Assembly (NCBI RefSeq): GCF_002849225.1
Contig: NZ_PKMC01000001.1
Span: 956,476 to 1,020,475 of the forward strand
Source of the DNA: Actinomyces sp. UMB0138
GTDB lineage: Bacteria; Bacillota; Negativicutes; Veillonellales; Veillonellaceae
Reading direction: 5' to 3'
DNA: 64,000 bases
Under the pieces are notes generated by a model. It was given only the letters and a program-made list of their open reading frames with translations, was not told where the DNA came from and searched no databases. Positions 41,438 through 57,528 of this stretch are shown piece by piece. The number at the start of each line of letters is the position of its first letter. Positions within the stretch are counted from its first letter, which is position 1. The translations under genes and the position numbers were made by a program.

Positions 41438-41474
41438 TTCTCTAATCCACAGGGCCTAAGGAAAAGAGTTAAGA

Positions 41475-42287: not shown

Positions 42288-42582
42288 GACATCTTTTGCA
42301 TTCCCTTTCTATTTGGTAGATGCGCCCGCGTAGCTCATTGTGCGTGTTCACCTCGTCTAGATAGAGCGTATTTACCTGCGCAGTCAGCGCTTGTACCATT
42401 TCGGCTATTTCACCGACTCGGTCGACAAGTGAGGGCCCGTCTGGAGGCCGTAAGTCTTTTGTTTCAGCTTTGATTTGATCGGTGCGGCGGTAGGTGGCCA
42501 GGGCAGTTATTAGAGCGCCAATACCGCCAAGGCCGCCCAAAGCGCTAATTATTGGGGCGATCTGATCCATTATCTTCATCAT
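42259..42582 (-). CDS. phage membrane protein with coiled coil (second holin-like protein)
   Basis: About 107 aa from the ATG pair at 42582 (MMKIMDQIAP); the frame is open further but overlaps the holin gene. One hydrophobic segment (IISALGGLGGIGALITALATY) near the N-terminus is followed by a charged helical tail (about residues 40-100) ending in basic residues. It is next to the holin and endolysin genes, so a lysis role (second holin or spanin-like) is likely. It overlaps the 3' end of the integrase gene by 29 bp on the opposite strand. Confidence 0.65.
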   Translation of the reverse strand: MMKIMDQIAPIISALGGLGGIGALITALATYRRTDQIKAETKDLRPPDGPSLVDRVGEIAEMVQALTAQVNTLYLDEVNTHNELRGRIYQIERECKRCPKPRRARRP

Positions 42583-42781
42583 CTCGGTGTTTTGGGGTAT
42601 GCGCGAGGGCAGTCCCAGTCCCCAGGACAGCGGCTGCCAGAGCGAGCCATAGAGCGGCCTGTGTAGCCTCGAGGACTCCATAGGCAATGAGGAGAGGGAC
42701 AAGAGCTGTAACGATACCGTAGAGGTAGCGGCGGGCGGCCGGTGGGATCGGTGGCAATCCAGGGGCGCGGTGTTTACTCAT
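42545..42781 (-). CDS. putative holin
   Basis: 78 aa with two hydrophobic segments (about residues 21-38 and 42-58), a short Pro-rich N-terminus and a very hydrophilic C-terminus (HTPKHRDDEDNGSDRPNN). Size, topology and position three bases after the endolysin gene fit a class II holin that opens the membrane for the amidase. Confidence 0.75.
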   Translation of the reverse strand: MSKHRAPGLPPIPPAARRYLYGIVTALVPLLIAYGVLEATQAALWLALAAAVLGTGTALAHTPKHRDDEDNGSDRPNN

Positions 42782-42784
42782 GGG

Positions 42785-43702
42785 TTATTTCCCTTTCGAA
42801 AAGCGCGAGTTAACGATCCGCTGCAATGCGGCGATCGCGGGTGAGGGGCCATCTAGGCGCCCGTCGATAGGCGTTTTATAGTAGGTTTGCATGGCTTTTA
42901 TAGTCGCTGGGCCAATCAGGCCGTCGCAGGTCGGAGCCGGCATATTCCAGAGTTTTTGCAAGTGCAAGATAAGGGCAGAGCCGGCTGGCTGGTCGGTCCA
43001 TTCCCACCCGGAGGTTAGGCCGGGATTACACCCTCGCCAGGCTCTCGGCTGGGATGAGACCAGGCCGTCGGCCGGGGTACCGAAAAACTGTTGGAAGACT
43101 CGAGTAGTCTCGGTACCCCAGTACCCATCAGGGGCAAGGCGGGCGGCCGAGGCGGTCGCGGGGCTCTTTGGGTATTTACCTACTGGGGCAGCCCCGTCGG
43201 CTTTGAGTTTGCCGGGGTGGTCCGGGTCAACGGCTGGGTAAAGCTGCGCCGCCCGGTCTCTGATCTGGGTTAGCAAGCCGAGGTATTTCCCAGGGCAGGT
43301 GGTCGGGACCCATGAACTATGAGGCAGCGGGGTTTTACCGGCTAAGTGCGGGTACCAGTGCCAAAGCACGGCCAGTAACATTGCCGCCGATTCTCTGGTC
43401 GCGGGGTCTGCGTGTGGGTTGAGCTCGATCGCGATAGTCGAGTTATTCCCCGCCCTTGTCCCAGTGGACCAGGTCCGATCAGAGCACGCGGCGAGGCAGT
43501 AGACGAGATCATGAGAGATAACAAAATGAGCTGACACGCCGGCGGTCTCACTCATGAAAAAGTCAGCGACGGCGGTCGCGGCGGTCCTCTTGTTGGCATA
43601 TTGGGAGGGATCGCCGAAGTGATGGAAGGTTACAGAAACGCGGGCATTTCCACCTGCCCACCGGTTAGGCGTGGTCAAGTTAGTTCGATATTCAAATCCC
43701 AT
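42785..43702 (-). CDS. phage endolysin, N-acetylmuramoyl-L-alanine amidase with peptidoglycan-binding repeats
   Basis: 305-aa lytic enzyme. The N-terminal Amidase_2/PGRP domain (about 1-150) has the zinc ligands His27 or His28 (TFHHFG), His128 and Cys136 (HSSWVPTTCPGKYL). The C-terminal half has two peptidoglycan-binding-like repeats, ending in GRLDGPSPAIAALQRIVN. There is no signal peptide, so the holin must release it. It cuts the amide bond between muramic acid and the stem peptide. Confidence 0.9.
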   Translation of the reverse strand: MGFEYRTNLTTPNRWAGGNARVSVTFHHFGDPSQYANKRTAATAVADFFMSETAGVSAHFVISHDLVYCLAACSDRTWSTGTRAGNNSTIAIELNPHADPATRESAAMLLAVLWHWYPHLAGKTPLPHSSWVPTTCPGKYLGLLTQIRDRAAQLYPAVDPDHPGKLKADGAAPVGKYPKSPATASAARLAPDGYWGTETTRVFQQFFGTPADGLVSSQPRAWRGCNPGLTSGWEWTDQPAGSALILHLQKLWNMPAPTCDGLIGPATIKAMQTYYKTPIDGRLDGPSPAIAALQRIVNSRFSKGK

Positions 43703-43705
43703 TTT

Positions 43706-44089
43706 TTAGCCTTTCTGCATGGAAGTTAGACGCCAGCCGACGGTCCCGAGGGCGCCGGTGTTATTGGAAGCGATTTGTAGAACTCGGCAGTTAACGGTCC
43801 CCTCGACAAGGGCAGTCGAGCAGGTTTGAACGAAAGTGAAGCCGGTAGTTGAGGCCGCGAAAGCCTCGAAGTAGTACCCATCGGGGGGAATGTAAGGGGC
43901 GGGTAAGCGTAGAGTCGCGACATAGCAGTCGCCTTTTTGGGAGTAGCTAAACTTAGGGATGGACCGAAAAAGCCCGCTAACTTCGTACTCTTTGCCCTCG
44001 ATGACTACCTTATTAGCGCGATTTGTCTCGGCAAAAGACTTGTTAAGGTCCTCGGCGGTGAGTATTTGGCCGGGCGTGTACTGTTTCAT
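43706..44089 (-). CDS. phage tail-associated protein, function unknown
   Basis: 127 aa. The first part (QILTAEDLNKSFAETNRANK) is helical and the rest mainly beta, with aromatic-rich strands (PPDGYYFEAFAASTTGFTFVQTC). This form and its place between the large tail protein and the endolysin suggest a tail tip or receptor-binding part. Start and stop overlap the upstream tail gene by four bases (ATGA). No known family recognised. Confidence 0.6.
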   Translation of the reverse strand: MKQYTPGQILTAEDLNKSFAETNRANKVVIEGKEYEVSGLFRSIPKFSYSQKGDCYVATLRLPAPYIPPDGYYFEAFAASTTGFTFVQTCSTALVEGTVNCRVLQIASNNTGALGTVGWRLTSMQKG

Positions 44090-45681
44090 CTAATTTGTCC
44101 TTTCATGGGTTGGGTAAGCTCTAGGGCAATTTCCCACCGGTAGGGAGTTATCCGGTGTTTTATGCCAACAATTAGGCCGCGCATGGTCTCACCACGCGCG
44201 GTTACTCGTGCAGTTAGCATGGTCTCGAGCATGACAGCGGCGGCCATCAATGCGCCTTTATGGGAGGTTCGTGTCTTAGTGGAGGCAAGGAGGGTTATCT
44301 CGGCGGGCGGTGGAACCTGTTCGGCTTGGCGGATCAGAGCGGCTAGGACACCCGATATTTGGTCTTGCCTGTACAGCATGAGATCTAGGGATGCTCTAGC
44401 GCCCCTGTAGGGCACATCAGAGCGGGAATGACTGACGGTCTGGTCAGTTTGTTCCCACTCGAGACGCTCGGTATCCCATCGTGCCGAGTGATTATTAGCC
44501 TCGATGTCTGTTACAGCTGTTGAAATCTCCCAACCGGTCGCGGCTTGCGTGTAGGACCAGACGTGGGCATCCGGGTCGGTTTCGGCCTCGTCGGTAAGGT
44601 GGAAGGGGAAAGGATCCCTAAGCTCGGGCTCAGCAGAGATCAGCAGGCGCCCGTCTCGGTCTACGCGCCAGAAGCCACCTACCGAGGCGGTTAGGGCGTC
44701 GAGGTAATTAGCAAGGCTAGTTTCCCAGGTGGTAGGGGCTAATTCGATCTGGCTGGTACCGTTTATCCAGTATTGGCGGCCCCTTGCTGATCCCATAAGG
44801 CGCCGGGTCCGATCGGGGAATAACTCGGCCCCGTTGCGTCCTTGGTATGGTCCTATCGCGCCGTAGCGGGTAATGTTAGCGAGCTCGGCAACTGCATCAG
44901 CAGCGGTGATCTTGACGTGGTACGGAACGGCCGAGCCGGGCCGGGCGGGGTCATATTTTAGATTGATTACCTCTCCAGTAAAGATGGCTTGGCGGGTTGG
45001 CCAATGTACTAGCCTTATCGGGGTGCCTTGCCGCATGCCGGTAACGCGCGGGTCAAGGCCGCCGGCTGCTGTTACTTCCATGGTCCCGGCGCGGGCTTTA
45101 CGGACCGGACCAGCCGCGTCATTGCCCCTGGATGTTTCAATATTGGTTACAGGGCTAATAATGTTTTGCCAGGCCACTGTGCGCACGGGGGCTTGTAAGC
45201 GGCCCTGATTGAGCCTGGAACGGTCAAGGATGAAGGTATCGCCGCCGGCGGCGGGTCGGTCGAGTGCGTCCACGTTCAGGCGGGAGGTACCAAGATAGAA
45301 GGCGCCGAGGCCTTTTACTGGTAGGTAGGCAAACAGTCCGAGGACCTGGGCCGGGTGTGGCTCGGCGTTGATTTGGGCGTGGTCGGTTAGGGTGAATTTC
45401 TGCAATGTCAGTGAGGCCGGCCCGGTCATTATTACCTCGACCTCGGCCGTCTCGGCTGTGAAGGTGTGGGTTACTTCCTCGCCGGGGCTGGCTGGGTAGG
45501 ACCTACCAGGCAGAGAGTAAAAGACTTTCTCGGCCGCGAGAGCATTAATAGTGTATTTGTGGCCTGCGATAAGGTCGGTAGCAGTAAAGACTGCGCGCCC
45601 GGCTTGGGTTAGATCAAATACGTATGGGTTTTGAAATCGTGGGGTTGGCGTGAAATCGTGCCAGCTAACAGGGAGTTGCAT
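44086..45681 (-). CDS. phage minor tail protein (distal tail/tip)
   Basis: 531 aa from the ATG at 45681, which follows GGAGG and lies just past the tape-measure stop; the frame opens earlier but overlaps. Mainly beta structure. The position directly after the tape measure, and the central segment GTPIRLVHWPTRQAIFTGEVINLKYD that looks like a distal-tail or gp27-like barrel, suggest the tail tip. In siphoviruses the gene here usually encodes the distal tail or tail-lysin protein. I see no peptidase motif. Confidence 0.7.
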   Translation of the reverse strand: MQLPVSWHDFTPTPRFQNPYVFDLTQAGRAVFTATDLIAGHKYTINALAAEKVFYSLPGRSYPASPGEEVTHTFTAETAEVEVIMTGPASLTLQKFTLTDHAQINAEPHPAQVLGLFAYLPVKGLGAFYLGTSRLNVDALDRPAAGGDTFILDRSRLNQGRLQAPVRTVAWQNIISPVTNIETSRGNDAAGPVRKARAGTMEVTAAGGLDPRVTGMRQGTPIRLVHWPTRQAIFTGEVINLKYDPARPGSAVPYHVKITAADAVAELANITRYGAIGPYQGRNGAELFPDRTRRLMGSARGRQYWINGTSQIELAPTTWETSLANYLDALTASVGGFWRVDRDGRLLISAEPELRDPFPFHLTDEAETDPDAHVWSYTQAATGWEISTAVTDIEANNHSARWDTERLEWEQTDQTVSHSRSDVPYRGARASLDLMLYRQDQISGVLAALIRQAEQVPPPAEITLLASTKTRTSHKGALMAAAVMLETMLTARVTARGETMRGLIVGIKHRITPYRWEIALELTQPMKGQIR

Positions 45682-45683
45682 GG

Positions 45684-48254
45684 CTATCTGCCTCCATTTA
45701 CGCGGGTCCATTGATCGAGCGCGTCGCGGATACGCCGCCCTGTTTCAGGGGTAGCGTCGAGGGCTTTTACTTCGAGATTGATCGAGTAGTTATTAACAGT
45801 CAGGCCGCCGCCAGCAGGTAGCAGTCCCGCCTCACCAATGCCTGGGACTTTCAGACCGGAGGTTAGCCCGCTTAGGGATGCCCGAACGGCGCTGTAGCGG
45901 TCCTCGAGCCCGTCGATAAACCCGCCAATGATTAGACGGCCATTGTCCCTAAGGAGGCGCGCGTCTTTACTCGCTGGGCCCTTCCAGGAAGGCAGCAGGT
46001 TAGTTAATCGAGACAGAGTAGAGCGCACCCTATGAAAGACCGACATTATACCGTCGATAAATCCCTGAATTAATGATCGGCCAGCCCAGGTGAGCGCAGA
46101 GCCGAGATTACCCACAGCAGAGACGGCCCGGCCGGGTAAGCCGGCGATCCATCCGACCGCTCTGGAGATTCCGTTGCTGATAGTTCCGGTAAAGCGGCTC
46201 ATTGCGCCTTGTACCCCGGCGGTAATACGGGACCAGCCCGCCGAGAGTTTGCCGGTAATACCAGCTACGAAGGAAGCGATACCGCGTGCGATCCCACCGA
46301 TTACGCCGAGGACGGTCGATGAGAAAGCCGACCACATAGACCGGCCGATCGCGAGAGCACCGTTTAGCACACCGGATATTAGCCCGGCGGCTGTTGAGAC
46401 TGCACCGGCAAGGACAGAGGCTAGGATCTGGGCGAGGGTCGAGATAACCGAGATTATCGGGGTGACGATCGGCAAAAGTGCGCTAAGGGCAGCGTTTAGG
46501 ACGTCGGCTACGATCTGGGCGACTAGTCCGAGGGCGTTTACCAGGGTTGGCAGTATTGGCATGAGCGCGGAGAGAACAGTCATTACAAGCTGGCCAATAG
46601 CTGGAAGTAAAGGCGATAGTGCTCTTAGCAGGGTGCCGACTACCTGGGCAACCGTGCCTAGCAGCTGAGCGATAGATGGCAGGGTAGGCAAAAGAGCTTG
46701 GATGACTTGTACAACGAAGGTAATTAGCATTGGCAGCAGCGGTGCTACCGCCCCAATTAGGGCGGTGAAAGCGTCAACGATCCCAGTCAGTAAAGGGGTA
46801 AGCTGCGGAAGGACCGGAACCAGAGCAGATACTACTTGGCCTATGAGCTGTGCCAGTACGGGCAAAAGCTGTGCCAGAGCGTTTGAGAGGGCCCCGGCAA
46901 GGAGACCGGCAATATTGGTAAAGGCCTCGGCAAGTTGTGGCAGTACGGGCAGGATTGCTTGTAGCGCGCTCATAAGGAGTTGACCGACCGCTAGGGCTAT
47001 CTGCCCTAATACTTGGCCGATCTGAGCGCCGAGGGGGGCCAAAGTCTGAAAGATGATACTCATCGGTGACAGGGAGGTCACTAGCTGGCCAATCAGCGGG
47101 GCCGCCTGGGATAGGGCCGGGCCGAGGGTGGAAGTGAGCATGTCGCCAAGCTGGGACAGGGCCGGGCCGGCCGTCTGCATTACTGAGCTAAGGAAGGAGC
47201 CTAGCCCCTGGGCTATCGGAGCGAGAGCGGGGCCAATCTGAGCCGGTAGAGTACTTAGAGCGCCGGTGATCTTCTGCCCTATCTCAGAGGTCCTAATCCT
47301 AGATAGGCCTTCGGAGAGTTTAGCCATTCCGGCCTCGGCGGTCTCGGCCGCCGCGCCGAGCTTGTCTTTTAGCCCGCCGGTAAGCTTTTCCCCGAGACCG
47401 TCGAGGACGGCCTCCAAACGCGGTCCAAGCCACTCAGCAAGCCTTTGCACGGCCGGAGCGATCGCTGCCGTGACGTTATCGACGGCGACAGTCATCTCAA
47501 AAAGGGCTTTTTTCACGGCTGGGAATACAGGCGAGACAGCAACCTCACCAAGCCGGTTTATCGCGGCCATGAAATTAGCGAACTGGCCACGCGTGGTATC
47601 TGCCATTACCTTGCCGGTGCCCCCGACCGTGTCCTCCATAGCGGCTAGGAAGCCGGCGAGATCGACTTTACCGGCGGCTACCATCTTTCGGAGCTCGTCC
47701 GCTGTTACGCCGTAGTGGTCGGCAAGCTTTTTATAGATTGGGATGCCCCGGTCGGCTATCTGATTCATTTCCTCAGCCGATACGCGGCCGTTAGTTGCGA
47801 CTTTGCCGAAGATAGCGCCCATTTCGCCCATGCCAACCCCGGCAATTTGAGCCGAGTCAGCTACAAGGGTCAGGTATCGGGTCATGTCTTTACCGGGTTT
47901 GATGCCAGCAGCGAAAGCCGAGGCCGCCGCCGTGGAAGCCTCATCGAGACCGTAGGCTGTTCCCTTTACGGCTTTGAGTGCGTCCGCTGAGATCTGTTTT
48001 ACCCTGCTTGCTGAGACCCCAAGGGCGGTGAGTTTCTTGGTCGCGTCCTCGAGTTTCATCGCGCGTGCAAAGCCGCCTTTTGCGGCAAGGCCGGCTATCG
48101 CGGTCCCAATCCCTACGGCGGCGCCAGCGCCGAGCTTGCCAATGGTGCCGAGTTTCGCGCCGAAACTTTTCGAGGTTTTGGCGGCGTCTTCAAAGCCTTT
48201 TGTAAAGTCTTTCACCTCGGCAAGGAGAGAGACGATAACAGTATGTTTAGCCAT
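45684..48254 (-). CDS. phage tail tape measure protein
   Basis: 856 aa, the largest gene of the prophage. The N-terminal TP901-type tape-measure domain includes AAASAFAAGIKPGKDMTRYL and GKVATNGRVSAEEMNQIADRGIP. The middle (about 330-650) is a long series of Leu-Pro-rich hydrophobic near-repeats (VLPQL, ALLPIV, QLLPVLAQLI). The C-terminal part is glycine-rich (IQGFIDGIMSVFHRVRSTLS). Its length sets tail length; 856 residues predict a tail of somewhat over 100 nm by the usual 1.5 angstrom per residue rule. Confidence 0.93.
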   Translation of the reverse strand: MAKHTVIVSLLAEVKDFTKGFEDAAKTSKSFGAKLGTIGKLGAGAAVGIGTAIAGLAAKGGFARAMKLEDATKKLTALGVSASRVKQISADALKAVKGTAYGLDEASTAAASAFAAGIKPGKDMTRYLTLVADSAQIAGVGMGEMGAIFGKVATNGRVSAEEMNQIADRGIPIYKKLADHYGVTADELRKMVAAGKVDLAGFLAAMEDTVGGTGKVMADTTRGQFANFMAAINRLGEVAVSPVFPAVKKALFEMTVAVDNVTAAIAPAVQRLAEWLGPRLEAVLDGLGEKLTGGLKDKLGAAAETAEAGMAKLSEGLSRIRTSEIGQKITGALSTLPAQIGPALAPIAQGLGSFLSSVMQTAGPALSQLGDMLTSTLGPALSQAAPLIGQLVTSLSPMSIIFQTLAPLGAQIGQVLGQIALAVGQLLMSALQAILPVLPQLAEAFTNIAGLLAGALSNALAQLLPVLAQLIGQVVSALVPVLPQLTPLLTGIVDAFTALIGAVAPLLPMLITFVVQVIQALLPTLPSIAQLLGTVAQVVGTLLRALSPLLPAIGQLVMTVLSALMPILPTLVNALGLVAQIVADVLNAALSALLPIVTPIISVISTLAQILASVLAGAVSTAAGLISGVLNGALAIGRSMWSAFSSTVLGVIGGIARGIASFVAGITGKLSAGWSRITAGVQGAMSRFTGTISNGISRAVGWIAGLPGRAVSAVGNLGSALTWAGRSLIQGFIDGIMSVFHRVRSTLSRLTNLLPSWKGPASKDARLLRDNGRLIIGGFIDGLEDRYSAVRASLSGLTSGLKVPGIGEAGLLPAGGGLTVNNYSINLEVKALDATPETGRRIRDALDQWTRVNGGR

Positions 48255-48381
48255 GTTTAGCTCTTTCTTTCACTAGCTGGCAAAAGGCGGTGTATTCGGC
48301 GAGGGTAAGGGCGCGGTATTCGGACGGGGGTAGGCCTGTCGCTAGGCAGAAGGCGGCTAGTCGCCTAGCGGCTGGGTAGGG
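48247..48381 (-). CDS. frameshifted C-terminal part of the tail assembly chaperone (GT product)
   Basis: In the -1 frame relative to the upstream chaperone gene, an open stretch continues past its stop and encodes LPPSEYRALTLAEYTAFCQLVKE, the typical C-terminal part of siphovirus GT chaperones. It has no own start codon and overlaps the tape-measure start. I infer a -1 frameshift near GACCCT (48383-48378), but no textbook slippery heptamer is present, so the exact site is open. Confidence 0.55.
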   Translation of the reverse strand, partial: PYPAARRLAAFCLATGLPPSEYRALTLAEYTAFCQLVKERAKHG

Positions 48382-48629
48382 TCCGGCTCGTCCTCGACGC
48401 CGAGGACGGTCTCGACGATGCCCTCGACCTTGCTCACTGGCAGGGCGCGGATATCCTCGAGTGTTTCGCCGGTGCCGTTACGGCGGGCGGCAATGTATGC
48501 GAGGGCGATTAGTAGGCCAGCTTTAGGGGTGCCAGGGCTACCCATTTCGTCCATTGGTAGTCCGCTAATTTTTTCAAATTGTTCGAGTTCGCCCATGGTC
48601 AGGCGGTCAAGCATTGCGGAGGTGTCCAT
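48357..48629 (-). CDS. tail assembly chaperone (G product)
   Basis: 90 aa, with a conserved helical centre (LGELEQFEKISG-like MGELEQFEKI, PGTPKAGLLIALAYIAARR) and an acidic C-terminus. Its place just before the tape measure is the standard place of tail chaperones, which bind the tape measure during tail assembly. A longer product made by frameshifting is likely. Confidence 0.75.
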   Translation of the reverse strand: MDTSAMLDRLTMGELEQFEKISGLPMDEMGSPGTPKAGLLIALAYIAARRNGTGETLEDIRALPVSKVEGIVETVLGVEDEPDPTQPLGD

Positions 48630-48633
48630 TTTC

Positions 48634-49038
48634 TTATTTCATTCCGTTCTTTTTTAGTAGTTTCTCGATGCCCTCATCGAAGGCGCGGAATTGTGCGGCG
48701 CGGGTATCTCGGAGGGCTTGGTCGAGGAAATGCACCGCGCGGATACGCCGGCGCGGCCACCCGTAGTTAATTACCGGAGCGTATGGCACGCGCGCCCCGC
48801 CGGCCCTCGATACAGCCTTAGTTTTGCCTCGGCCGGCTCTGAGAGAGCCTTTTAGCCGCCCGGTCTTTAATGGGACGAGTCCGGCGGCGCGGCGTACTAC
48901 AATCATGCCGACAGAGTGCATTAGATCACGCATGTCCGTTGCGGCCGCGCCGGCCCGGTTCAAGTCCCTAATAGTCTCGTTTAGGCCGCTAATGCGGGCG
49001 TTTAAGCCAGCGTATTTGCCGCCCTTGTCTCGACTCAT
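48634..49038 (-). CDS. HK97 gp10-like head-tail/tail completion protein
   Basis: 134 aa with a helical N-terminus (LNARISGLNETIRDLNRAG), then VVRRAAGLVPLKTGRLKGSLRAG, which is the gp10-family hallmark, and a final PYAPVINYGWP. In the HK97 group this protein completes the joint of head and tail. It lies out of the usual order, after the major tail protein. Confidence 0.7.
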   Translation of the reverse strand: MSRDKGGKYAGLNARISGLNETIRDLNRAGAAATDMRDLMHSVGMIVVRRAAGLVPLKTGRLKGSLRAGRGKTKAVSRAGGARVPYAPVINYGWPRRRIRAVHFLDQALRDTRAAQFRAFDEGIEKLLKKNGMK

Positions 49039-49040
49039 TT

Positions 49041-49472
49041 TTAGCCCAAAGGCGCGGCGGTACCGCCTGTGAGGGTCCAGTCCTCGACGGGTAGCTCGAG
49101 CTCAAAAGTCGCAGTCTCGTTAACCTCTGTAGACAAGGCCGGAGGCTTTTCAATCGTGCATTTACCGGTAACGTGCGGCTGGTCGTCGGTGGGCTTTTCA
49201 TTACCGTGTACCGCGATCATAAACGGGACTGTTTCACCAACGTGATCGAACAGGAAGCGCCAAAGCGAGGCTTTAGCGGTCGACTGGATACCGGCGACTT
49301 TTAGCTGCATCGGGGTTCCGCCTACGTTGATGGACCCGAAGGTAGCGGAATCGTCTTTATCGACCGGTTCCAGGGTTACAGAGGACATGTCTGGCCAGTA
49401 TTCGGTCTCGTTTAGTTTGAATCCTAGGCGCTTGCCGCGGATGCGGGGAGACTCTTTGAGTTTGGAAGCCAT
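49041..49472 (-). CDS. major tail protein
   Basis: 143 aa, mostly beta, with the start MASKLKESPRIRGKRLGFKLN and a C-terminal TATFELELPVEDWTLTGG. Its size and place after the tail terminator and before the chaperones and tape measure fit the tail tube protein of short siphoviruses. AAAGGCAAACTATT precedes the ATG (weak ribosome site). Confidence 0.7.
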   Translation of the reverse strand: MASKLKESPRIRGKRLGFKLNETEYWPDMSSVTLEPVDKDDSATFGSINVGGTPMQLKVAGIQSTAKASLWRFLFDHVGETVPFMIAVHGNEKPTDDQPHVTGKCTIEKPPALSTEVNETATFELELPVEDWTLTGGTAAPLG

Positions 49473-49487
49473 AATAGTTTGCCTTTC

Positions 49488-49853
49488 TTAGAGGGTGATC
49501 GTCGTGTGTATGATCGCGGCGGGCCAGGCCGGCCCGGCCCCAATCTGGAGAGTTTCTAGGGTTGTGGTCTCGGCCTCGAGGTCCATGTCGAGGTCTTCGA
49601 GAATCTCACCAAGGGCTAGGACGGCCCCGGCCGCGTCCTCGCTATTGGGTGATATGAGGGCGGGCTCGAACTTGTAAGATCGCCGTTCATAAGTGATCGG
49701 GGTTATCTCGGTTGGCGGGGCAATAAATAGGATTATTTGATCGGCTGCCAGGGCTGGGATCACCTCTGCCGGGTCTGTGATGATCGGGACGCCGGTCCCC
49801 TCGAGGGCCTCAGCGGCGGCCTCAGCCATTGCATCTATTGCGGTTTGTATCAT
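49488..49853 (-). CDS. phage tail terminator-like protein
   Basis: 121 aa from the ATG at 49853, which overlaps the stop of the connector gene (ATGA). It has a first helix (IQTAIDAMAEAAAEALEG), then beta strands (QIILFIAPPTEITPITYERRSYKFEPALISP) and a last helix/strand pair, like HK97 gp11/gpU tail terminators. Confidence 0.65.
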   Translation of the reverse strand: MIQTAIDAMAEAAAEALEGTGVPIITDPAEVIPALAADQIILFIAPPTEITPITYERRSYKFEPALISPNSEDAAGAVLALGEILEDLDMDLEAETTTLETLQIGAGPAWPAAIIHTTITL

Positions 49854-50167
49854 GCTAGGCCCGCCCCTTTCAGCCACGGGGCAAGGATCGGGCGGGCCGG
49901 GGTTAGCGGGTCCAGGGCTGGCCTATAGTATGCTGGCGCGCTCTCGATCCCCTCGCCTAGGCCTGGCTGGGCCGATTGGGCACGCCGAGCCCAGAGATTA
50001 CCGGCGACCTGCAAGATTGCCTGGTCTTTTACTTCTTCCGGTACGGAGGCGGTGCCGATGTGACGCTCGACGGTTCCGGTCGCGGCGGTAAGGCAGGAGA
50101 CAACAAAAGCCTCGTCGGCTTTTGGCCCGGCCCGCAGGTATGCTCGTAGCTCGGTAGCGGTAACCAT
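49850..50167 (-). CDS. head-tail connector (gp6-like)
   Basis: 105 aa, all helical. The family start MVTATELRAYLRAG with AFVVSCLTAATGTVERHIG is followed by VKDQAILQVAGNLWARR, the core pattern of phage gp6-like adaptors. It directly follows the capsid gene, as expected. Confidence 0.75.
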   Translation of the reverse strand: MVTATELRAYLRAGPKADEAFVVSCLTAATGTVERHIGTASVPEEVKDQAILQVAGNLWARRAQSAQPGLGEGIESAPAYYRPALDPLTPARPILAPWLKGAGLA

Positions 50168-51751
50168 TTATTCGGCCTTGGTAAAGGTGATTGGTCGGAT
50201 AGCGGCCGGGGCGGGCTCGAAATGAGCGGCGTACCCATAGACGGCGAAGTCCTTGGTAAGGTCCAAGACGTTCGTGTCCTGCAACCTTAGAGGCGCGCCG
50301 GGCGCTTCCTTGATCGCGATTGCTTCCTTGGCAAAGCCAGCAGCAGCATTACCCGCCCAGCCTGGCACGCGCACAACAGAAAGGTTAGCGAAGGTCGCGC
50401 TACCTGTAGCAACTGTTAGGGTGCCCTGTTGGCGATCCGGCGCGCCGGTAAACTGTAGCGCCTTTGGCGTGTATTCGAGCTTGGCAAGGGCAGCGTAGAC
50501 CGCCGGCGAGACCGCGATCCCGTCTAGCGGGTAAGGGGTGTCGTCATAGGCGGCAAGTAATGCAAGGATCGTGTCGATCCATTCGTTCACGGTGCCAGCG
50601 GTGATCGAGCCGACAGCAAGGGCAGTGTTAGCTTTCACCCGTTCGGTAAAGACTGAGCGGGTTTTCGCTTCGATCTGCCTACCGTATTCGAGGGCCTGCA
50701 GGTAGAGGAGGTCATCCAGTAGGGAGACGCTCGAGCGGTCAATGGCCTGGAAGCTCATTTTACCGGCGCCGCCGTAAGTTAGGACCGGGGCGGACTTGAC
50801 TTCATACTGGGCGGGCTTGCCAAGGGGCAGCGGGTCCCCCTCGTTGGCCTGTACCCCAACCTTGACAGTGCTCTCTCCTTTACGCTGAGCGTACTCGACC
50901 GTCATCCCCTCGGCGGGCAGGTCGGTTGTGTGGGTGAAAAGGTTGGTCACGGGCTGTTTTAGCTCGATGCGCCGCTCGAGATTGCCAAGCCAGGCAGGGC
51001 GGGCGACGGTATCGCCGATGACCGCGCCCTCATATGCGCGCTTGGCGAGCTCGGTCGCGCCAGGACGGGATTCCTTGCCAATTAGGGCGTGAGCATACTC
51101 ACCAAGAGAGCGGAATACGAAGGGGATGCCCTCGGTCTCGTCTGGTCTGGTGGCTTCTCGCAGCTGGGCGAGGTCGCGGCTGAGGTCCTCGACCTGTTCC
51201 CTTAGCGGGTCGGTCACGGTGGTCAGGTCGGAGCGGGTCAGGGTCTGGGTCTCAGTTGGCATGGTTGGCCTTTCTCTAATTTCTGTAATCTGGGTGGTTT
51301 CGTATGCTGGGAACTCGACAACCGAATACTCTCGAGCTTTGACAGCCGTCCAGGTTATGAGGGTGGCCTCGTCCTGGACGGTTTCGGTGTGCTCGAGGCC
51401 GTCAAATCCTATGGACATGCGGGTTAAGACACCGTCAGTTATGAGGGTTGCGATATCCCGCCCGCGCGCGGTATCGCTAATCTCAGCAGTAATGACGCGG
51501 CCGGCGTCCGTGTCCTCGGCTTTGATAATTCGGCCGATCGGCTCGGTATGCCCATAGCGCAGTATCGCGCCGGTGTCATCGATAGAGCCGGGCGCGAACT
51601 TCTCTTTGAGGCCGTCCCAAAGAGTCGTCTCGGTATCGTACGGGACAGCAAGCGCGGTAATGGTCCGTCCTTCGGCCCCGCCGGTGTTATCGGCGGTAAG
51701 GTCAGCCAGAGCGCGGGTCTGTAGTCCCTCTAGCGGGCTAGTGTTCTGCAT
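50168..51751 (-). CDS. fused HK97-type prohead protease and major capsid protein
   Basis: One 527-aa reading frame holds two functions. Residues about 25-160 are a HK97-family S78 protease, with catalytic His68 (RYGHTEP) and Ser113 (LTRMSIGFDG). A linker with a charged helix (REQVEDLSRDLAQLREA, about 180-200) matches the capsid delta/scaffold domain. Residues about 210-527 are the capsid fold. No separate protease or scaffold gene is present, so the fusion explains part of the small genome. The start overlaps the portal gene by 14 bp. Confidence 0.85.
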   Translation of the reverse strand: MQNTSPLEGLQTRALADLTADNTGGAEGRTITALAVPYDTETTLWDGLKEKFAPGSIDDTGAILRYGHTEPIGRIIKAEDTDAGRVITAEISDTARGRDIATLITDGVLTRMSIGFDGLEHTETVQDEATLITWTAVKAREYSVVEFPAYETTQITEIRERPTMPTETQTLTRSDLTTVTDPLREQVEDLSRDLAQLREATRPDETEGIPFVFRSLGEYAHALIGKESRPGATELAKRAYEGAVIGDTVARPAWLGNLERRIELKQPVTNLFTHTTDLPAEGMTVEYAQRKGESTVKVGVQANEGDPLPLGKPAQYEVKSAPVLTYGGAGKMSFQAIDRSSVSLLDDLLYLQALEYGRQIEAKTRSVFTERVKANTALAVGSITAGTVNEWIDTILALLAAYDDTPYPLDGIAVSPAVYAALAKLEYTPKALQFTGAPDRQQGTLTVATGSATFANLSVVRVPGWAGNAAAGFAKEAIAIKEAPGAPLRLQDTNVLDLTKDFAVYGYAAHFEPAPAAIRPITFTKAE

Positions 51752-52889
51752 TGGTTTGATCTTCCTCGAGTGGGTTTAAGCCCTCGATCTTTCGGACTTC
51801 GTTAGGCGTTAGGAAGCCGTTTCTAAGGGCGATCTCGTGGGCTTGATAGCGCGTTAGGGTATCGGGGCGTAGGAAGGCCTCGAAGTTGAATCGGATGGTT
51901 TGCCCATTCGGGGCGAGGGCGGTGAGGGCTTCCTCGATCTTCCGCGTGTAAGTCATTAGGGTGAAGCGGATAAAGCTCAACCATTCTTGTTCGAGGTTGG
52001 AATAGGTCTTGCTTCCGCCCTCGACAGCGGCGAGCATGAGCGAGGCAGGTATACCGAAAAGTCGGCTAATGTCGACCGCGCTCATCTTCCTGCCTTCGAT
52101 CCATTGGGCATCGCGGGGGTTGATGAAAAGGGGCGTGTAATGCATTCCCTTGGACAGGACTCGCACACGGGCGGGGTTGTCCTCGACCGGCAAGGGCACC
52201 CCGTCGGCGTCCCGGTAGTTCCACGCGTTGCGCATGGCTTTTAGCTGGTCTTGGGTTGCGTCCTGGTCGGTAGTCAAGATTCCGGCTGGCTGGCCACTAT
52301 CGCGGAAATACTTAGCGGCATAGTCGCGCATGTCCAAAGCGCCGGCGAGCTCGACGCGGGCGGCCTGGATCGGGCCGAGACCAAAGAGAGAGCCGGGCAG
52401 GGGCATTAGCGCTAGGTGCTGGATACGGTCCGCGCCGTAGGTCCGGCCCCGATACGAAACTGTTTTTGCCCCGGTTTTTGGGTCTACAATCGGGGTGGCT
52501 TCGGCGGGGTTGAGGGCCTCGAGTAGCATGTCCCGGCCTTGTCCGGTTGCCATAATGTAGGCATTTCCCCCGGATGCTAGGGACAGGGCAAGGGCCTCGA
52601 GGAAGTCGGAGCGGGATTGATGTAGGTTCGGGCGGCGAACGTACGGGGGAACTCCCTCGGTGACGGTAGTGCCGGATCGCTCGACTTGTAGGGGTAGCTG
52701 GGCGACGGAGGTCGCGATGATCTGGATCGCGCGATAGACACCAGACAGGCCACATGCCGCCGATACCGAAAGCGAGGCGTTTTCGGAGCGTCTTAGGGCC
52801 GGAGGGATGCTTATCCCAGCCCCGCCGGCAGCTTGTCGGGTTGCGGTTGGGCCTTTCAGCCATTGGCTAATCGCGCGGGTAATGCTCAT
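51738..52889 (-). CDS. HK97-family portal protein
   Basis: 383 aa, the dodecameric ring at the packaging vertex. The family stretch SGVYRAIQIIATSVAQLPLQV is near the N-terminus, then LEALALSLASGGNAYIMA, MRDYAAKYFRDSGQPAGIL and SRLFGIPASLM, all typical of HK97 gp3-type portals. It overlaps the protease-capsid gene and follows the terminase. Confidence 0.92.
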   Translation of the reverse strand: MSITRAISQWLKGPTATRQAAGGAGISIPPALRRSENASLSVSAACGLSGVYRAIQIIATSVAQLPLQVERSGTTVTEGVPPYVRRPNLHQSRSDFLEALALSLASGGNAYIMATGQGRDMLLEALNPAEATPIVDPKTGAKTVSYRGRTYGADRIQHLALMPLPGSLFGLGPIQAARVELAGALDMRDYAAKYFRDSGQPAGILTTDQDATQDQLKAMRNAWNYRDADGVPLPVEDNPARVRVLSKGMHYTPLFINPRDAQWIEGRKMSAVDISRLFGIPASLMLAAVEGGSKTYSNLEQEWLSFIRFTLMTYTRKIEEALTALAPNGQTIRFNFEAFLRPDTLTRYQAHEIALRNGFLTPNEVRKIEGLNPLEEDQTNAEH

Positions 52890-52970
52890 AGCCCAGAGGC
52901 TAGGCCGCCGGGCGCGCGTTTGGCCAGGCTGGGCAACCGTTACAGGCCTTTACGGGCCTTTACGATCCGC

Positions 52971-54407
52971 CTAGGCTACGATCAGCGGGGTTACCTCGGC
53001 GACTTGGTGCGTATGGGCATATATGCCTATCGAGAGAGCGATTAGGGAGGGTATCGGAGCGGTCGACCGGTCGCGGTCGAATAGATCAACTCCGTTGCGG
53101 CGGCGTATTTGGGCGTTAGCGATAGCGATCCGAAAAGCTTTTGATCCGTCTTGGATTAGCTTTGCCTCGTCACGGGCGGCAGTTAGGAGAGTCTGATCGG
53201 CAAGGGCACGCTCGGAAAAGCTAAGCGCCTTAACGGGTAATTGGTCGGCGAGTGCGTCAACAAGGCGGGCGGCGGGGCCTTTCGAGTCAGCGGCAAAGAC
53301 TTTTACCCCGCGCGCGGTAAGGTCCTCGAGGTAGTCTTTTACCCACCCGGTACCGGGGGCTTGGTGCAATAGCTTGCCGACGGGCCGGCCGGTCGGGGTG
53401 GTCCATGAGGCAACTACCGCTGCGCACTCATTACCGGCGGCGAGATCAAACCCTACTGTCACGTCCTCCAGGGCCGGCGGGGCCAGCTTGGGAAAGTCCT
53501 CGGCGAGTAGGTCCCAATCCTCCAAAGGCATGAGGGTCGCAGCAACCTCAGTAAGCCGGTTACAGTATGCTCTAAGCCATTCCCCTCTCGGTAGGTCGAT
53601 TTCATCGCGGAGGGCTTCCTCGGTAATCGTGTTACCTAAAGCGGGGTGAAAGGACCACCAGACGGCCGGATCGTATGGGTCGGCGCCCTCGGCCATTTCC
53701 CAGCTAAAATAAGCCAGGCGCGGGGTTTCACCTTTCAAAGACGCGCCAACCATACCGTTCATGAACGTTGATGCGGCCGTCCCTTTGGTCGAGGTGTACC
53801 ACCGCTGCGCTTGGCCGTGTAGGGTGATCTGCGCGGGTCTGATCCCGCCCATAATCGCCCGGCCCTGATCGGCGGTAAAGTTCCAGATCTCATCGAGATC
53901 AACGTACGGGGTGGTTTCACCGTGGACGGCTTCCTCGTTCGGGGTGAACTGGGCCAGGTCAGCGCCGTTACAGGTAAGGGTTAGGCCGGCGTCGCCTTTA
54001 CCCCGCCGAGGGTGAAAAAGAGGCCCAATTATAGAGTGATCTACCGCGTCGACCATGTCTAACATGCGCTTTGAGGCGTGTTTTTGGGTCTGGGCGGTGC
54101 AGAAAAGATGAGTAGCCGGGTTTATTACCATCCGGTACACGCGCAACGGTCTAAGTAGGGTTGTTTTACCGGATTGGCGCGGGGTCGATACAAGCACATC
54201 GTTGTAATGGTAGACTCGCCGCCCTCTCGAGTCACGGCGGTATTCTGTTCCGATAGCCCATATGTGCCGTTGGTAGGGCATGGGTTCAAAGCCGAGGGCA
54301 CGGGCAACGCGGGTTATAGAGGGTTCCTCGGTGTAATAAGAGTAGTCGCGGCGGGGCGCGTGAGCTGGGGCGGGGAAATGCGTAAAAGTCCGAAGTGTAG
54401 TAGCCAT
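52971..54407 (-). CDS. terminase large subunit
   Basis: 478-aa packaging motor. The ATPase domain has Walker A TPRQSGKT at residues 75-82 and Walker B YVDLDE at 168-173. The nuclease domain begins with GFDLAAGNECAAVVASW, where the Asp is a metal ligand. This type (PQRQSGKT-like) is common in actinophages that package by cos ends, but the packaging mode is not proven by sequence. It starts eight bases after the small subunit. Confidence 0.93.
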   Translation of the reverse strand: MATTLRTFTHFPAPAHAPRRDYSYYTEEPSITRVARALGFEPMPYQRHIWAIGTEYRRDSRGRRVYHYNDVLVSTPRQSGKTTLLRPLRVYRMVINPATHLFCTAQTQKHASKRMLDMVDAVDHSIIGPLFHPRRGKGDAGLTLTCNGADLAQFTPNEEAVHGETTPYVDLDEIWNFTADQGRAIMGGIRPAQITLHGQAQRWYTSTKGTAASTFMNGMVGASLKGETPRLAYFSWEMAEGADPYDPAVWWSFHPALGNTITEEALRDEIDLPRGEWLRAYCNRLTEVAATLMPLEDWDLLAEDFPKLAPPALEDVTVGFDLAAGNECAAVVASWTTPTGRPVGKLLHQAPGTGWVKDYLEDLTARGVKVFAADSKGPAARLVDALADQLPVKALSFSERALADQTLLTAARDEAKLIQDGSKAFRIAIANAQIRRRNGVDLFDRDRSTAPIPSLIALSIGIYAHTHQVAEVTPLIVA

Positions 54408-54415
54408 GAGCGAGC

Positions 54416-54766
54416 CTAATCAGTTGGTGCCACGTCGAAGGGGCCGGGTTCGTCCGTGTCAGCGGCGAAAAGCTCGGTAAGCCGATCAATCACACTTACT
54501 TCCTCGCTTTTTGGCTCTGGAAGGCGGGCCGATACCTCGTTCAAAGCTTTTATGAGGTTGGCTTGCCCGCTTGCGGCGTCTGTTGGTTTGATCCGGTCTA
54601 CCGCGCGGGCTGATCTGAGGACCAGAGTTTTTAGGCCGGCCTGGGCCGCGTTCATTACCCCGGTTTTTTCTAGGTATTCGATCTGGGTTTTAAATGATTG
54701 CTCGACATCGCCGATAATCTCATTTTTTTCTGGGGTTTTTACGCTAAATAATGCCAATTCATCCAT
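54416..54766 (-). CDS. terminase small subunit (probable)
   Basis: 116 aa, helical, acidic at the C-terminus (DTDEPGPFDVAPTD). The segment EQSFKTQIEYLEKTGVMNAAQAGLKTLVLRSARAVDR resembles actinophage small terminases. Position immediately before the large subunit supports the call. No clear helix-turn-helix is seen. Confidence 0.65.
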   Translation of the reverse strand: MDELALFSVKTPEKNEIIGDVEQSFKTQIEYLEKTGVMNAAQAGLKTLVLRSARAVDRIKPTDAASGQANLIKALNEVSARLPEPKSEEVSVIDRLTELFAADTDEPGPFDVAPTD

Positions 54767-54908
54767 ACTGGGCGGGCCTTCTTTCGGATGGGTTTCAGGC
54801 CGGTTTTAATAGTGGGTTTGGGGAGGGAAGTCCGGCAGGGGCGAGGTGGAGCCGCCCCAGCCTCGAGCGAAAAAACACGCCCGCGCGGCCAGCCGTAACA
54901 TCGCGGTC
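54767..54908. other. intergenic stretch between HNH gene and terminase (candidate cos region)
   Basis: 142 bp, one of the longest non-coding stretches in the prophage, exactly between the HNH endonuclease and the small terminase, where cos sites of HK97-like phages usually lie. I see no clear repeat that marks the cut. Confidence 0.3.
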
Positions 54909-55187
54909 TCATGTGAAGTATCCAAGCCCAGACTCGATTAGGCCCCCCGGCCCCGCGTATCCGCGATTACCGACCGAGCTATTACAGCGCCGATGGGCCG
55001 GCCGGCAAGACTCGAGGGTCGTCAGCCCGCCTTTAGACCTCGGTGTTAGATGTTCGACGGACTCATCGCCCGGCCTGATCGGTAGACCACAGATGCAGCA
55101 GCGCCAGCCATACAGCCGGAGCAACTCGAGAGTGAACGCGCGGCGCGCTTTACCAGACCGAGTGAGCCAGTCCTCGCCGCACCTCAT
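54909..55187 (-). CDS. HNH endonuclease
   Basis: 92 aa. CCICGLP and CRPAHRRCNSS give the two Cys pairs of a zinc-stabilised HNH fold, with the catalytic part in ESVEHLTPRSKGG (His in EH, Asn/His in HRRCN). HNH proteins coded next to terminase help cut concatemers during packaging in the HK97 group. Overlaps the preceding gene by four bases. Confidence 0.88.
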   Translation of the reverse strand: MRCGEDWLTRSGKARRAFTLELLRLYGWRCCICGLPIRPGDESVEHLTPRSKGGLTTLESCRPAHRRCNSSVGNRGYAGPGGLIESGLGYFT

Positions 55188-55402
55188 GATATTACCCCAG
55201 TAGCGGGCAGTGTACCGCCCCGGCGCCGCTCGGTAATATACCTGGCCACATCCGCCGGGACGTACCGTACTGACCTACCCACCTTGACAAAGGCGGGGCC
55301 GGTACCCCGCTTCCTCATATGCGAGAGCTGGCAAGGTGACACGGCTAGCACCTCGGCGGCCTCGGCCGGGGTCCAAAGGCGATTATCATTAATCGGTCTC
55401 AT
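55184..55402 (-). CDS. helix-turn-helix DNA-binding protein (candidate excisionase)
   Basis: 72 aa with a MerR/AlpA-like winged helix: WTPAEAAEVLAVSPCQLSHMRKRGTGPAFVKVGRSVRY, then VARYITERRRGG. This is the fold of phage recombination directionality factors, so it may be the excisionase for the integrase at the far end. It could also be an early-gene regulator. Part of an early minus-strand run with overlapping starts and stops. Confidence 0.65.
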   Translation of the reverse strand: MRPINDNRLWTPAEAAEVLAVSPCQLSHMRKRGTGPAFVKVGRSVRYVPADVARYITERRRGGTLPATGVIS

Positions 55403-55592
55403 AGCCCTGGATATCCATCCGATAAGTCGCTACACCAATACGAAGGATGTCCCGCGCCGATGCGAGAGCGTTAGAAAAGCTAATCTGCTGGCAACTCATC
55501 GAATACGGCGAGCCGCCCGCTATCCGGTGCATACCGTCAGTCAATAGATCAATAGCCATCTTAGCCGCTTCGATTTCTTCGACTTCTCTCAT
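55389..55592 (-). CDS. small phage protein of unknown function
   Basis: 67 aa, not recognised. Acidic N-terminal helix (REVEEIEAAKMAIDLL), two Cys residues at most and no membrane segment. Overlaps the genes on each side by four and 14 bases, so it is clearly translated as part of the early run. Confidence 0.55.
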   Translation of the reverse strand: MREVEEIEAAKMAIDLLTDGMHRIAGGSPYSMSCQQISFSNALASARDILRIGVATYRMDIQGYETD

Positions 55593-56434
55593 GCGCGCTT
55601 CCTCCTTGCCATTGCAAGAGCGAGGGCAGGCCCGGCGTATCCCTGCTTCTCGAGCTGTGCGACATCCGGGTCAGCAGAAGTACCCATAAGAGCCGGCTCG
55701 GCCGCTGCAGCCGGGTTTAGTGCCCCGCCTGCTGCTTTGTTGCGCTGCGCGTCCCACTCGGCAAACAGATTAGGCGGTAAGTGGTTTAGCTTGCATTGCG
55801 GACACCGATCAGGGCGGGCAAAGCCGTGGGAGCAATGCACGCCCGCTAATCGATCTGGCGAGATACTCGGAATAGCTGGCATTTCTTTACCTTTCTTAGG
55901 TGAGATACTTCGGCGGTGAGTTGAGTGGGTACACTCACCACCCTTTAAGGTGTGAGGGTCTTTACCTAGTTCTTCTTGGTCTGAGCTGGGTAAACGCTTG
56001 CCGCGATTTCTGAAACACAGTTTGTACAGATTGGCCAAGCGCTTTGAGGTCTCGAGGCGGTGCCGGCGAGTGTTCTCGTCATTGATCGGGCGGGCAAGAT
56101 TAATCAGGGCAGCAAGGGCGCGTTTAGAGACACGGAATGTGCCAGCAGTGGGCTTGCCATCAATAACACCGCCCCGGTTCCAGGTAATGACACCGAGGCC
56201 CTCGAGTACCCAAAGACAACGCCGTGTCCAGTCCTTTGAAAGGCCGGTACGGACGCTAATCTGATACGCTGTACCCCGTCCGCTCAAACTCGGCGTTTTG
56301 TAAAGATGGTCCACTAGAGCGCGCAGTGTTGAACGCACCCCTTGCCATCGGCGACCGGTCAGAGGGCCCCAACCGGCATGTGAGAGCATCCCTATAAGCA
56401 TCGGGCCGGGCATCCCAGCGGTAGCGGGCCTCAT
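55589..56434 (-). CDS. phage winged-helix protein (probable replication initiator)
   Basis: 281 aa. Residues about 30-100 form a winged helix (LRALVDHLYKTPSLSGRGTAYQISVRTGLSKDWTRR region, GLGVITWNRGG wing). The middle is basic (HRLETSKRLANLYKLCFRNRGKRL). A short CSHG/CPQC zinc-like motif is near residue 210. Its place in the early region and domain order fit the replisome-organiser proteins of small temperate phages. No helicase or polymerase is encoded, so host machinery must be recruited. Confidence 0.6.
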   Translation of the reverse strand: MRPATAGMPGPMLIGMLSHAGWGPLTGRRWQGVRSTLRALVDHLYKTPSLSGRGTAYQISVRTGLSKDWTRRCLWVLEGLGVITWNRGGVIDGKPTAGTFRVSKRALAALINLARPINDENTRRHRLETSKRLANLYKLCFRNRGKRLPSSDQEELGKDPHTLKGGECTHSTHRRSISPKKGKEMPAIPSISPDRLAGVHCSHGFARPDRCPQCKLNHLPPNLFAEWDAQRNKAAGGALNPAAAAEPALMGTSADPDVAQLEKQGYAGPALALAMARRKRA

Positions 56435-56649
56435 GCGCCCATCTCGATTGAGTCAAGGATGAATAGACCGAGCGCCGCCCAAAGGCAAGCAATCGAGGAC
56501 AACAGGAAGATAGCTACTCCATAAGACCGGGTAATCGGATCAGCTCCATATAGGCCAAACCAAACGCCTAGCACGCCCCCGATAATGAAAAGGACGGTCA
56601 GCAGCAGCAGGCCCCAAATCAGGACGCGACGAACTTTAATAGCCCTCAT
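56431..56649 (-). CDS. small phage membrane protein
   Basis: 72 aa with two transmembrane segments (about residues 9-33 and 44-65) joined by a short loop. N-terminus basic (RAIKVRRV). Location among early genes, away from the lysis genes, suggests superinfection exclusion or a host take-over role rather than a holin; this is a guess. Confidence 0.55.
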   Translation of the reverse strand: MRAIKVRRVLIWGLLLLTVLFIIGGVLGVWFGLYGADPITRSYGVAIFLLSSIACLWAALGLFILDSIEMGA

Positions 56650-56845
56650 CACTCGACTCCTTCTCGAGAGTGCGGCTAATAAGCTTCTCGACTAACAGGG
56701 CCCGTGTCTCTAGATCCCTAAGGGCATATTCGACACCTACCGGTAAATCCCTACCCATGTAAGCCACGCCAAGGACCGGCAAAACCTCGCCTAGGGCATC
56801 GGCAGCATCATGCAAAGACCTAAAACGATCCGGGTTACTCATCAT
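56636..56845 (-). CDS. small phage protein of unknown function
   Basis: 69 aa from the ATG pair at 56845 (AGGGGGCG upstream). Sequence MMSNPDRFRSLHDAADALGEV then a helical acidic C-terminus (LEKESSDEGY). Overlaps the stop of the cro-like gene, so it is read with it. No family recognised. Confidence 0.5.
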   Translation of the reverse strand: MMSNPDRFRSLHDAADALGEVLPVLGVAYMGRDLPVGVEYALRDLETRALLVEKLISRTLEKESSDEGY

Positions 56846-57095
56846 CACGCCCCCTAATCGGGTGAGGCGACTCAGCCGTAACACCAGCAAGAAAACGGGG
56901 TGTTATGACCAACTGAATGCCTAGGCCAGCCAGGGCCTCGAGATCAGCGACGCTAAACGCCGTAAGCCCGTTGAGGCGCCGATTAAAGGAAGGTTGCGAC
57001 ATACCTAAACGGGAAGCTAAGACCGACTGCGAAATCCCTTCGGCGGCCATATACTCGCGCACTCGATCGCACACGTTCGTTTGAGTAGTGTTCAT
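56835..57095 (-). CDS. Cro-like helix-turn-helix regulator
   Basis: 86 aa from the ATG at 57095 (MNTTQTNVCDRV). The helix-turn-helix reads ISQSVLASRLGMSQPSFNRRLNG at about residues 18-40. It is divergent from the repressor and first in the early minus-strand run, as lambda cro is. The promoter (TTGTAA, 17 nt, TAGCAT) ends seven bases before the ATG, so its message may be leaderless. The open frame further upstream overlaps the promoter and is unlikely to be used. Confidence 0.8.
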   Translation of the reverse strand: MNTTQTNVCDRVREYMAAEGISQSVLASRLGMSQPSFNRRLNGLTAFSVADLEALAGLGIQLVITPRFLAGVTAESPHPIRGRDDE

Positions 57096-57206
57096 ATTGC
57101 GTATGCTATGCATTTTTCGCACAACTTACAAGCATGTAATTATCAATTATGCAATAAGATGCTCCACACCTTGCTAGACTATGCGCTAATCGAATAAGGT
57201 AACAGC
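57095..57206. promoter_or_regulatory. repressor/cro divergent control region with operator-like repeats
   Basis: Minus-strand cro promoter: TTGTAA (57131-57126), TAGCAT (57108-57103). Plus-strand repressor promoter: TTGCTA (57171-57176), 18-nt spacer, TAAGGT (57195-57200), start near 57207. Three related sites follow TATGCNNTAA: 57148-57157 (TATGCAATAA), 57180-57189 (TATGCGCTAA) and, on the other strand, 57103-57095 (TACGCAATA). One overlaps the cro start site, one the repressor promoter spacer. Inferred by eye. Confidence 0.6.
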
Positions 57207-57494
57207 ATGAGCACTACACTATTGGCGAGACCGACCTCGGCAGGCGATATCACTACCCTTAATATCAAGCTGCTTTTAACGCGGGCAGGATGGACCGGAT
57301 CAGATTTAGCAAGGGCGTTAAGGATCAATCAGACTCAAATCTCTAACCGAATGACCGGGAAGACAGAGTGGAAGATCAGCGACCTTGAGTCGATCGCAAC
57401 ACTATTCAACACAACCCCTTGGGCACTCATGACGCCTGCGCCCGGTGACGAGTGGCGCCCCCGACAGGACTCGAACCTGCAACCTCGGGATTAG
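57207..57494 (+). CDS. prophage repressor, C-terminus set by integration (attR lies inside the gene)
   Basis: 95-aa helix-turn-helix protein (ELKLLLTRAGW-like IKLLLTRAGWTGSDLARALRI, then NQTQISNRMTGKTEWKISDLES). Residues 83-95 (WRPRQDSNLQPRD) are encoded by the att core, and the TAG stop uses the last core base plus two host bases. In the circular phage, attP would instead read on into the left end and add WHFYPFSLAA before TAA at 41432-41434, a 105-aa form ending in LAA. That is an ssrA-like tag. The message is probably leaderless. This mirrors integration-dependent immunity of mycobacteriophages BPs and Brujita. Confidence 0.85.
   Translation: MSTTLLARPTSAGDITTLNIKLLLTRAGWTGSDLARALRINQTQISNRMTGKTEWKISDLESIATLFNTTPWALMTPAPGDEWRPRQDSNLQPRD
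57451..57492. repeat. attR core
   Basis: 42 bp identical to attL. It forms the 3' part of the intact tRNA-Arg gene and at the same time the 3' coding end of the prophage repressor on the other strand. Confidence 0.95.
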
Positions 57495-57528
57495 AAGGCC
57501 CTTGCTCTATCCATTGAGCTACGGAGGC
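57453..57528 (-). tRNA. tRNA-Arg(UCU), site of prophage insertion
   Basis: Complete on the minus strand, 76 nt with encoded CCA (57455-57453). Acceptor GCCTCCG/CGGGGGC, D-arm GCTC-GAGC, anticodon loop CTTCTAA with UCU, T-loop GGTTCGAGTCC. The anticodon stem is short (three clear pairs). The prophage restored the 3' half, so the gene stays functional. Confidence 0.93.

Follow-up and report, generated by a model that had tools for sequence, protein, structure and literature searches.

In the 64,000-nucleotide stretch of DNA that was analysed (the window), we found a small prophage whose attachment site lies within its own repressor gene, and the view that this locus constitutes an integration-dependent immunity system is well supported. 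Because the attachment site sits in the repressor gene, the free phage encodes a tagged repressor of 105 amino acids, whereas the prophage encodes a tail-less form of 95. We consider it likely that the PFSLAA end makes the viral form a target of ClpXP, and that the shorter form is stable and keeps the prophage silent. The two reading frames, the order of the genes, all four attachment sites and the tag, together with its recurrence in relatives, can be read directly in the DNA.

Repressor forms and attachment sites

The prophage is bounded by a 42-bp direct repeat. The features of the element on which the analysis rests are as follows (positions within the window; strand given where one applies):

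41361..57492: prophage, 16,090 bp plus the second copy of the 42-bp core, delimited by the repeat, the rejoining, the empty site and the attP form
41361..41402: attL core, 42-bp direct repeat
57451..57492: attR core, 42-bp direct repeat
57453..57528, reverse strand: tRNA-Arg(tct), whole at attR (ARAGORN) and restored on integration
57207..57494, forward strand: repressor gene, prophage form; ATG start, 95 aa ending ..DSNLQPRD before the stop, Cro/C1-type HTH
57492..57494, forward strand: TAG stop of the prophage form, the last base of the core followed by host AG; antisense of tRNA nt 35-37
41402..41434, forward strand: 3' end of the viral repressor, separated from it in the prophage (WHFYPFSLAA plus TAA) and joined to it in L034 (see below)
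57123..57206: intergenic control region between the repressor and the Cro-like gene
56835..57122, reverse strand: divergent Cro-like HTH gene; phrog_4583 E 3e-12, start codon provisional
41475..42287, forward strand: tyrosine integrase, 270 aa, C-terminus ..AAALGAA; Pfam Phage_integrase E 1.6e-18
55184..55402, reverse strand: excisionase-like HTH_17 protein; HTH_17 E 5.9e-8, phrog_66 E 4.6e-8, phrog_4691 E 0.0017

The repressor matches the Pfam families HTH_3, HTH_31 and BetR as well as phrog_4583, transcriptional repressor (E 4.4e-16). A first-pass annotation of this DNA had proposed that the 95-aa prophage frame stops at a TAG made of the last core base and two host bases, and this is what we found; the stop needs both host bases. 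Its statement that the frame enters attR at codon 83 holds for the start of the tRNA, but exact identity begins in codon 82, two bases before that. When the core is joined to 41403, the frame is kept, as the annotation had also proposed, and the ten residues WHFYPFSLAA are added before a TAA at 41432-41434, so that the viral protein of 105 aa ends ..DWHFYPFSLAA. The crossover codon is TGG in the viral form and TAG after insertion. With the core (57451-57492) inside 57207-57494 and the attP junction seen in L034, attP lies within the repressor reading frame. One copy of the short repressor in the protein collection (P0001) reads DSGLQPRD where the window has DSNLQPRD (57471-57476); this change would sit in the T-loop of the tRNA.

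All four attachment sites were located, attL and attR in the window, attP in IMG/VR and attB in G001, the nearest genome. Repeat comparison and ARAGORN assign the 42-bp core to the 3' portion of tRNA-Arg(tct). This gene is also whole at the unoccupied site in G001, where 60 nt are identical on each side. The flanking DNA in G001 matches that of the window at 99.4% and 99.98% identity, so G001 probably belongs to the same species as the window strain. The first-pass annotation had named a broken frame at attP among the observations that would speak against the switch; the first 1,486 nt of IMGVR_UViG_2808606529_000003 match the predicted junction exactly and keep the predicted frame. A segment of 10,285 nt from this record (L034) shows one mismatch to the prophage. 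The record is a single contig, trimmed at gene boundaries, and may represent either excised or tandem phage. It was the only match to the attP pattern in viral contigs, and the attL pattern was absent from the viral contigs searched. Alignment and relative searches among viral contigs likewise gave this record as the only close relative, besides distant HTH matches. The other prophage genes form a small siphovirus-like set, comprising portal, prohead protease, tape measure, major tail protein and holin.

In the attP form, the integrase start codon (ATG, 41475) follows the stop of the viral repressor by 40 nt on the same strand, again as had been noted. Residues R139, K165, H219, R222, H245 and Y254, which we take to be catalytic, are invariant in 12 relatives. 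Judged from sequence only, the C-terminus ..LGAA is a candidate degradation signal; AA ends just one of 50 non-overlapping ORFs in the window, namely this integrase. In the prophage, host DNA precedes the integrase, and upstream of it lies a divergent ssb-like gene. The promoter and operator search of the locus yielded weak repeats only; it found no sigma-70 consensus site before the integrase, and none in 57123..57206 between the repressor and the cro-like gene. On the basis of its profile matches, the excisionase-like protein (55184-55402) is a candidate directionality factor. It is encoded here, whereas reviews describe these systems as being without an evident one.

Degradation-type ends and alternative explanations

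The tmRNA tag of the same-genus genomes G001, G003 and G004 is AEHNRTDFALAA. Its end, DFALAA, and the viral repressor end, PFSLAA, have F-x-L-A-A in common, in agreement with the ssrA-like character ascribed to the tail by the first-pass annotation, and the main ARAGORN call ends in LAA at 23 of the 23 tmRNA loci read. The six frames of the window contain 1,837 stop-terminated segments of 20 aa or more. Three of these end in LAA, the viral tail being one of them, and a single one, again the viral tail, ends in FxLAA. The host protease genes that had been reported from the window are indeed present:

13515..14852, reverse strand: host clpX, NCBIfam clpX E 2.4e-179
14873..15523, reverse strand: host clpP, first copy
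15533..16162, reverse strand: host clpP, second copy

Insertion turns the TGG at the crossover into TAG, for which the tRNA-Arg anticodon, read antisense, supplies the two stop-making bases. It also parts the repressor from the integrase, with which it is presumably co-transcribed. In the proposed mechanism, the long repressor would be degraded, probably by ClpXP, and the short form would persist, repress the phage genes and confer immunity. Since the integrase ends in AA too, its lifetime probably sets how often infection leads to lysogeny.

We searched three groups of genomes for relatives of the repressor: 59 near genomes, 9 of which gave a match; 21 genomes that have integrase relatives; and 213 genomes of the family, 31 of which matched at 1e-9. 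Rejoining was tried on 22 prophages including that of the window; 20 gave a core, and G013 and G247 were dropped for lack of one. With the reading frame fixed by the repressor's own frame, the viral repressor ends in AA in 11 of 20 cases and the prophage form in none of 20. The other two frames served as control; of these 40, which include one empty frame, a single one ends in AA (Fisher p 4.9e-6). Collapsing near-duplicates left 10/18 against 1/36 (p 1.7e-5) and restriction to same-contig pairs 8/17 against 1/34 (p 2.8e-4), all three p-values treating related phages as independent. Of the 20 pairs kept, three (G142, G014, G069) span two contigs; the core of G142 stops at a mismatch, which leaves its frame uncertain. 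The strict AA criterion is that of the first-pass annotation; a wider set of tags (AA, VA, AS, SA, LA), chosen after the data had been seen, covers 15 of 20 viral and 3 of 40 control frames. Of the 20 integrases of the rejoined prophages, 8 end in AA; the wider set raises this to 13 and leaves seven untagged. A chance open frame as the source of the tail was rejected on the strength of the control frames and the relatives. The 20 rejoined prophages form a set in which tags can be compared.

Five of the 20 viral repressors carry no tag, namely those of G208 (RAI), G143 (TYS), G024 (HEK), G073 (EHE) and G020 (DHS). Among the 59 near genomes, which were searched first, the closest repressor is that of G024 (53% identical), and yet it is untagged. 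At the G024 attP (L022, L137), a long, hydrophobic viral tail ends WRHEK, and another frame of that stretch ends VAA, the one AA of the control. In G201, G196, G197, G210 and G141 the repressor ends in a tRNA, and the search found no close integrase relative (best about 3e-31, or none at 1e-30).

In the protein collection, 10 of 12 candidates are relatives of the 105-aa form. Three are short and end in QPRD; seven are long, six of them ending in AA and one in VA, and differ in the interior of the tail. Three of the long forms come from contigs as large as this phage (15,848 to 16,073 bp). Of the others, P0008 is on a contig of 235,830 bp and P0002 on one of 31,880 bp, about twice the phage length and perhaps a doubled circle. 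On a Rhodococcus aetherivorans contig (L038/L108), a repressor ending ..ALSAA adjoins the integrase, which is the attP arrangement inside a genome contig.

Searches of phage records gave 571 with a tblastn match to the integrase; PhrostedPhlake (Gordonia, 46.1%) and Angel-type mycobacteriophages (46.6%) stand at the top of the best 40. The repressor matched 63 records, and the best 40 of these 63 are all mycobacteriophages. Several of these 40 matches, e.g. that of Redi, fall on the divergent partner gene, and Angel is absent among them. In five annotated phages the repressor ends in AAA (PhrostedPhlake), KAS (Angel), EVA (Kevin1), EAA (IdentityCrisis) and SAA (Redi), and the Angel integrase as read here ends VAGF. 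The annotated isolate phages have the repressor and the integrase in the same order as here.

Could this be an ordinary tRNA-targeting prophage, in which the repressor merely overlaps the att site, LAA is a matter of chance and both forms are equally stable? The five untagged relatives would fit this explanation, as would the constraint that core and tRNA place on the frame in any case. Yet it does not account for AA in 11/20 viral against 1/40 control frames, for the six AA ends among seven long database forms despite their differing tail interiors, for the rarity of LAA in the window (3/1,837) or for the AA end of the integrase, and we regard it as very unlikely. An origin of the IMG/VR attP junction as an assembly artefact across the 42-bp repeat appears extremely improbable; the record is one contig trimmed at gene boundaries, but relatives contribute seven long forms in the protein collection, three of them on phage-size contigs, and the repressor-integrase order recurs in isolate phages.

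Two further explanations concern what integration does. It might act mainly on transcription, the split of the integrase from the repressor operon locking the prophage in, while the tail would matter little. The prophage integrase behind host DNA, with the divergent ssb-like gene upstream and no promoter-like site found there, is consistent with such an effect; however, it would leave unexplained why AA ends recur in repressors and integrases, and uncoupling and a degron are compatible with each other. Transcription as the main level of action seems unlikely to us. The long form might also have a job beyond instability, such as activating its own promoter. According to an excerpt of PMC4557955, the long BPs repressor, once stabilised, gives a modest increase in Prep activity, and DNA binding is similar for the two forms. 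The G024 tail, moreover, is long, hydrophobic and untagged. Against such a role, to which we assign a very low probability, stand the mere 10 residues of the tail here and the wide variation of relatives' tails in length and sequence except at the end. Our preferred reading remains that of a degradable viral repressor exchanged for a stable one on integration.

Position of the repressor stop in the tRNA

Repressor-like loci with a tRNA beside the stop number 28, with 8/25 and 17/30 from two sets, two from a third and the window itself. The stop falls within the anticodon arm of the tRNA in 26 of them. At 20 loci it occupies nt 35-37 (Arg-tct 7, Asn-gtt 12, Lys-ctt 1); the remaining anticodon-arm stops are at 32-34 (Arg-acg 2), 39-41 (Arg-acg 1, Lys-ctt 2) and 29-31 (Thr-cgt 1). 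The two exceptions are the Bifidobacterium loci L093 and L094 at tRNA-Glu, with the stop at nt 19-21. In both, an open frame of 311 aa with an HTH runs antisense through the tRNA past its anticodon.

When the 46 distinct tRNA genes of G001 are read antisense in three frames, 98 combinations are open through the T arm, and 25 of these stop in the anticodon arm. For the combinations of tRNA and frame in use, it is 7 of 8 distinct ones against 25/98 (p 4.4e-4, a post hoc value obtained with the tRNAs of one genome, G001, and with related loci). We tentatively suggest, with somewhat less than even confidence, that the switch dictates the integration site, in that only tRNAs with an antisense anticodon-arm stop in the repressor's frame may serve, the near-invariant anticodon providing the stop that removes the degron. 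If true, this would be a testable rule linking tRNA choice, reading frame and repressor stop. Within the portion of the literature covered, the passages on integration-dependent immunity do not tie the anticodon to tRNA choice by frame.

Comparison with known systems

Excerpts of PMC4557955 and PMC9262239 describe the BPs switch as having attP in the repressor gene, a tagged viral form, a stop formed at the junction, a tagged integrase, tRNA targets and no evident directionality factor. Besides BPs (cluster G), integration-dependent immunity belongs to clusters I, N and P. As far as these excerpts go, the locus studied here resembles BPs in the position of attP, in the repressor followed by the integrase on one strand, in the divergent Cro-like gene, the tRNA-Arg target, the junction-made prophage stop, the tag of the viral form and, as a candidate only, the C-terminal degradation signal of the integrase. 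On the same basis, it differs in the tail, which has 10 residues rather than 33, and in the prophage stop, which corresponds to tRNA nt 35-37 rather than being a TGA at a cysteine codon. Angel, which we take to be a member of the BPs group, has KAS in place of the canonical LAA found here. Its integrase is 46.6% identical to the one described here, and its repressor (gp33) about 20% in an alignment, homology to BPs gp33 being a criterion for cluster G.

In the Bifidobacterium breve/longum prophages Bb423phi2 and 689b-1, the switch is only predicted, according to the part of PMC6109161 at hand. That part presents them as small elements with a tRNA target, the integrase at attL, the repressor at attR and an ssrA-like tag on the rejoined repressor, all as here; unlike here, the target is tRNA-Met and the tail has 18 residues. 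Passages of PMC5559632 predict the switch for Gordonia phages, with UmaThurman, Twister6 and Wizard at tRNA-Arg and cluster CW at tRNA-Lys. As presented there, they share with our element attP in the repressor, ssrA-like tags and tRNA-Arg among the targets, but have other hosts and, except for cluster CW, larger genomes. The integrase of PhrostedPhlake is 46.1% identical to that of the window. In the best 20 of 172 matches, the terminase of the element is closest to that of the 15.6-kb Arthrobacter phages, Maggie and relatives (35.5% identical over 92%), whose genomes are of similar size. Maggie-type phages are described as lytic in the passages of PMC5559632, whereas the element here has an integrase and a repressor.

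For M. abscessus phages, integration-dependent immunity is also reported or predicted in excerpts of PMC8092301, which mention that some repressors of this class of systems lack an ssrA-like tag and suppose other degradation signals for them. The absence of a tag is therefore compatible with the mechanism, but it weakens the tag as a mark of the switch. We found no publication on integration-dependent immunity in Actinomycetaceae in the part of the literature covered. The idea that the same logic works in another actinobacterial family agrees with the architecture, frame, tag and neighbouring genes; the novelty of the host is weaker than the first-pass annotation implied, since Gordonia and Bifidobacterium cases had already been predicted in the sources cited. 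As far as these sources reach, the locus is a further example of a known switch, a system demonstrated for BPs and predicted for Gordonia and Bifidobacterium. With attL, attR, attP and attB all available in sequence, it takes a lysis-lysogeny switch built on recombination and proteolysis into a further actinobacterial family.
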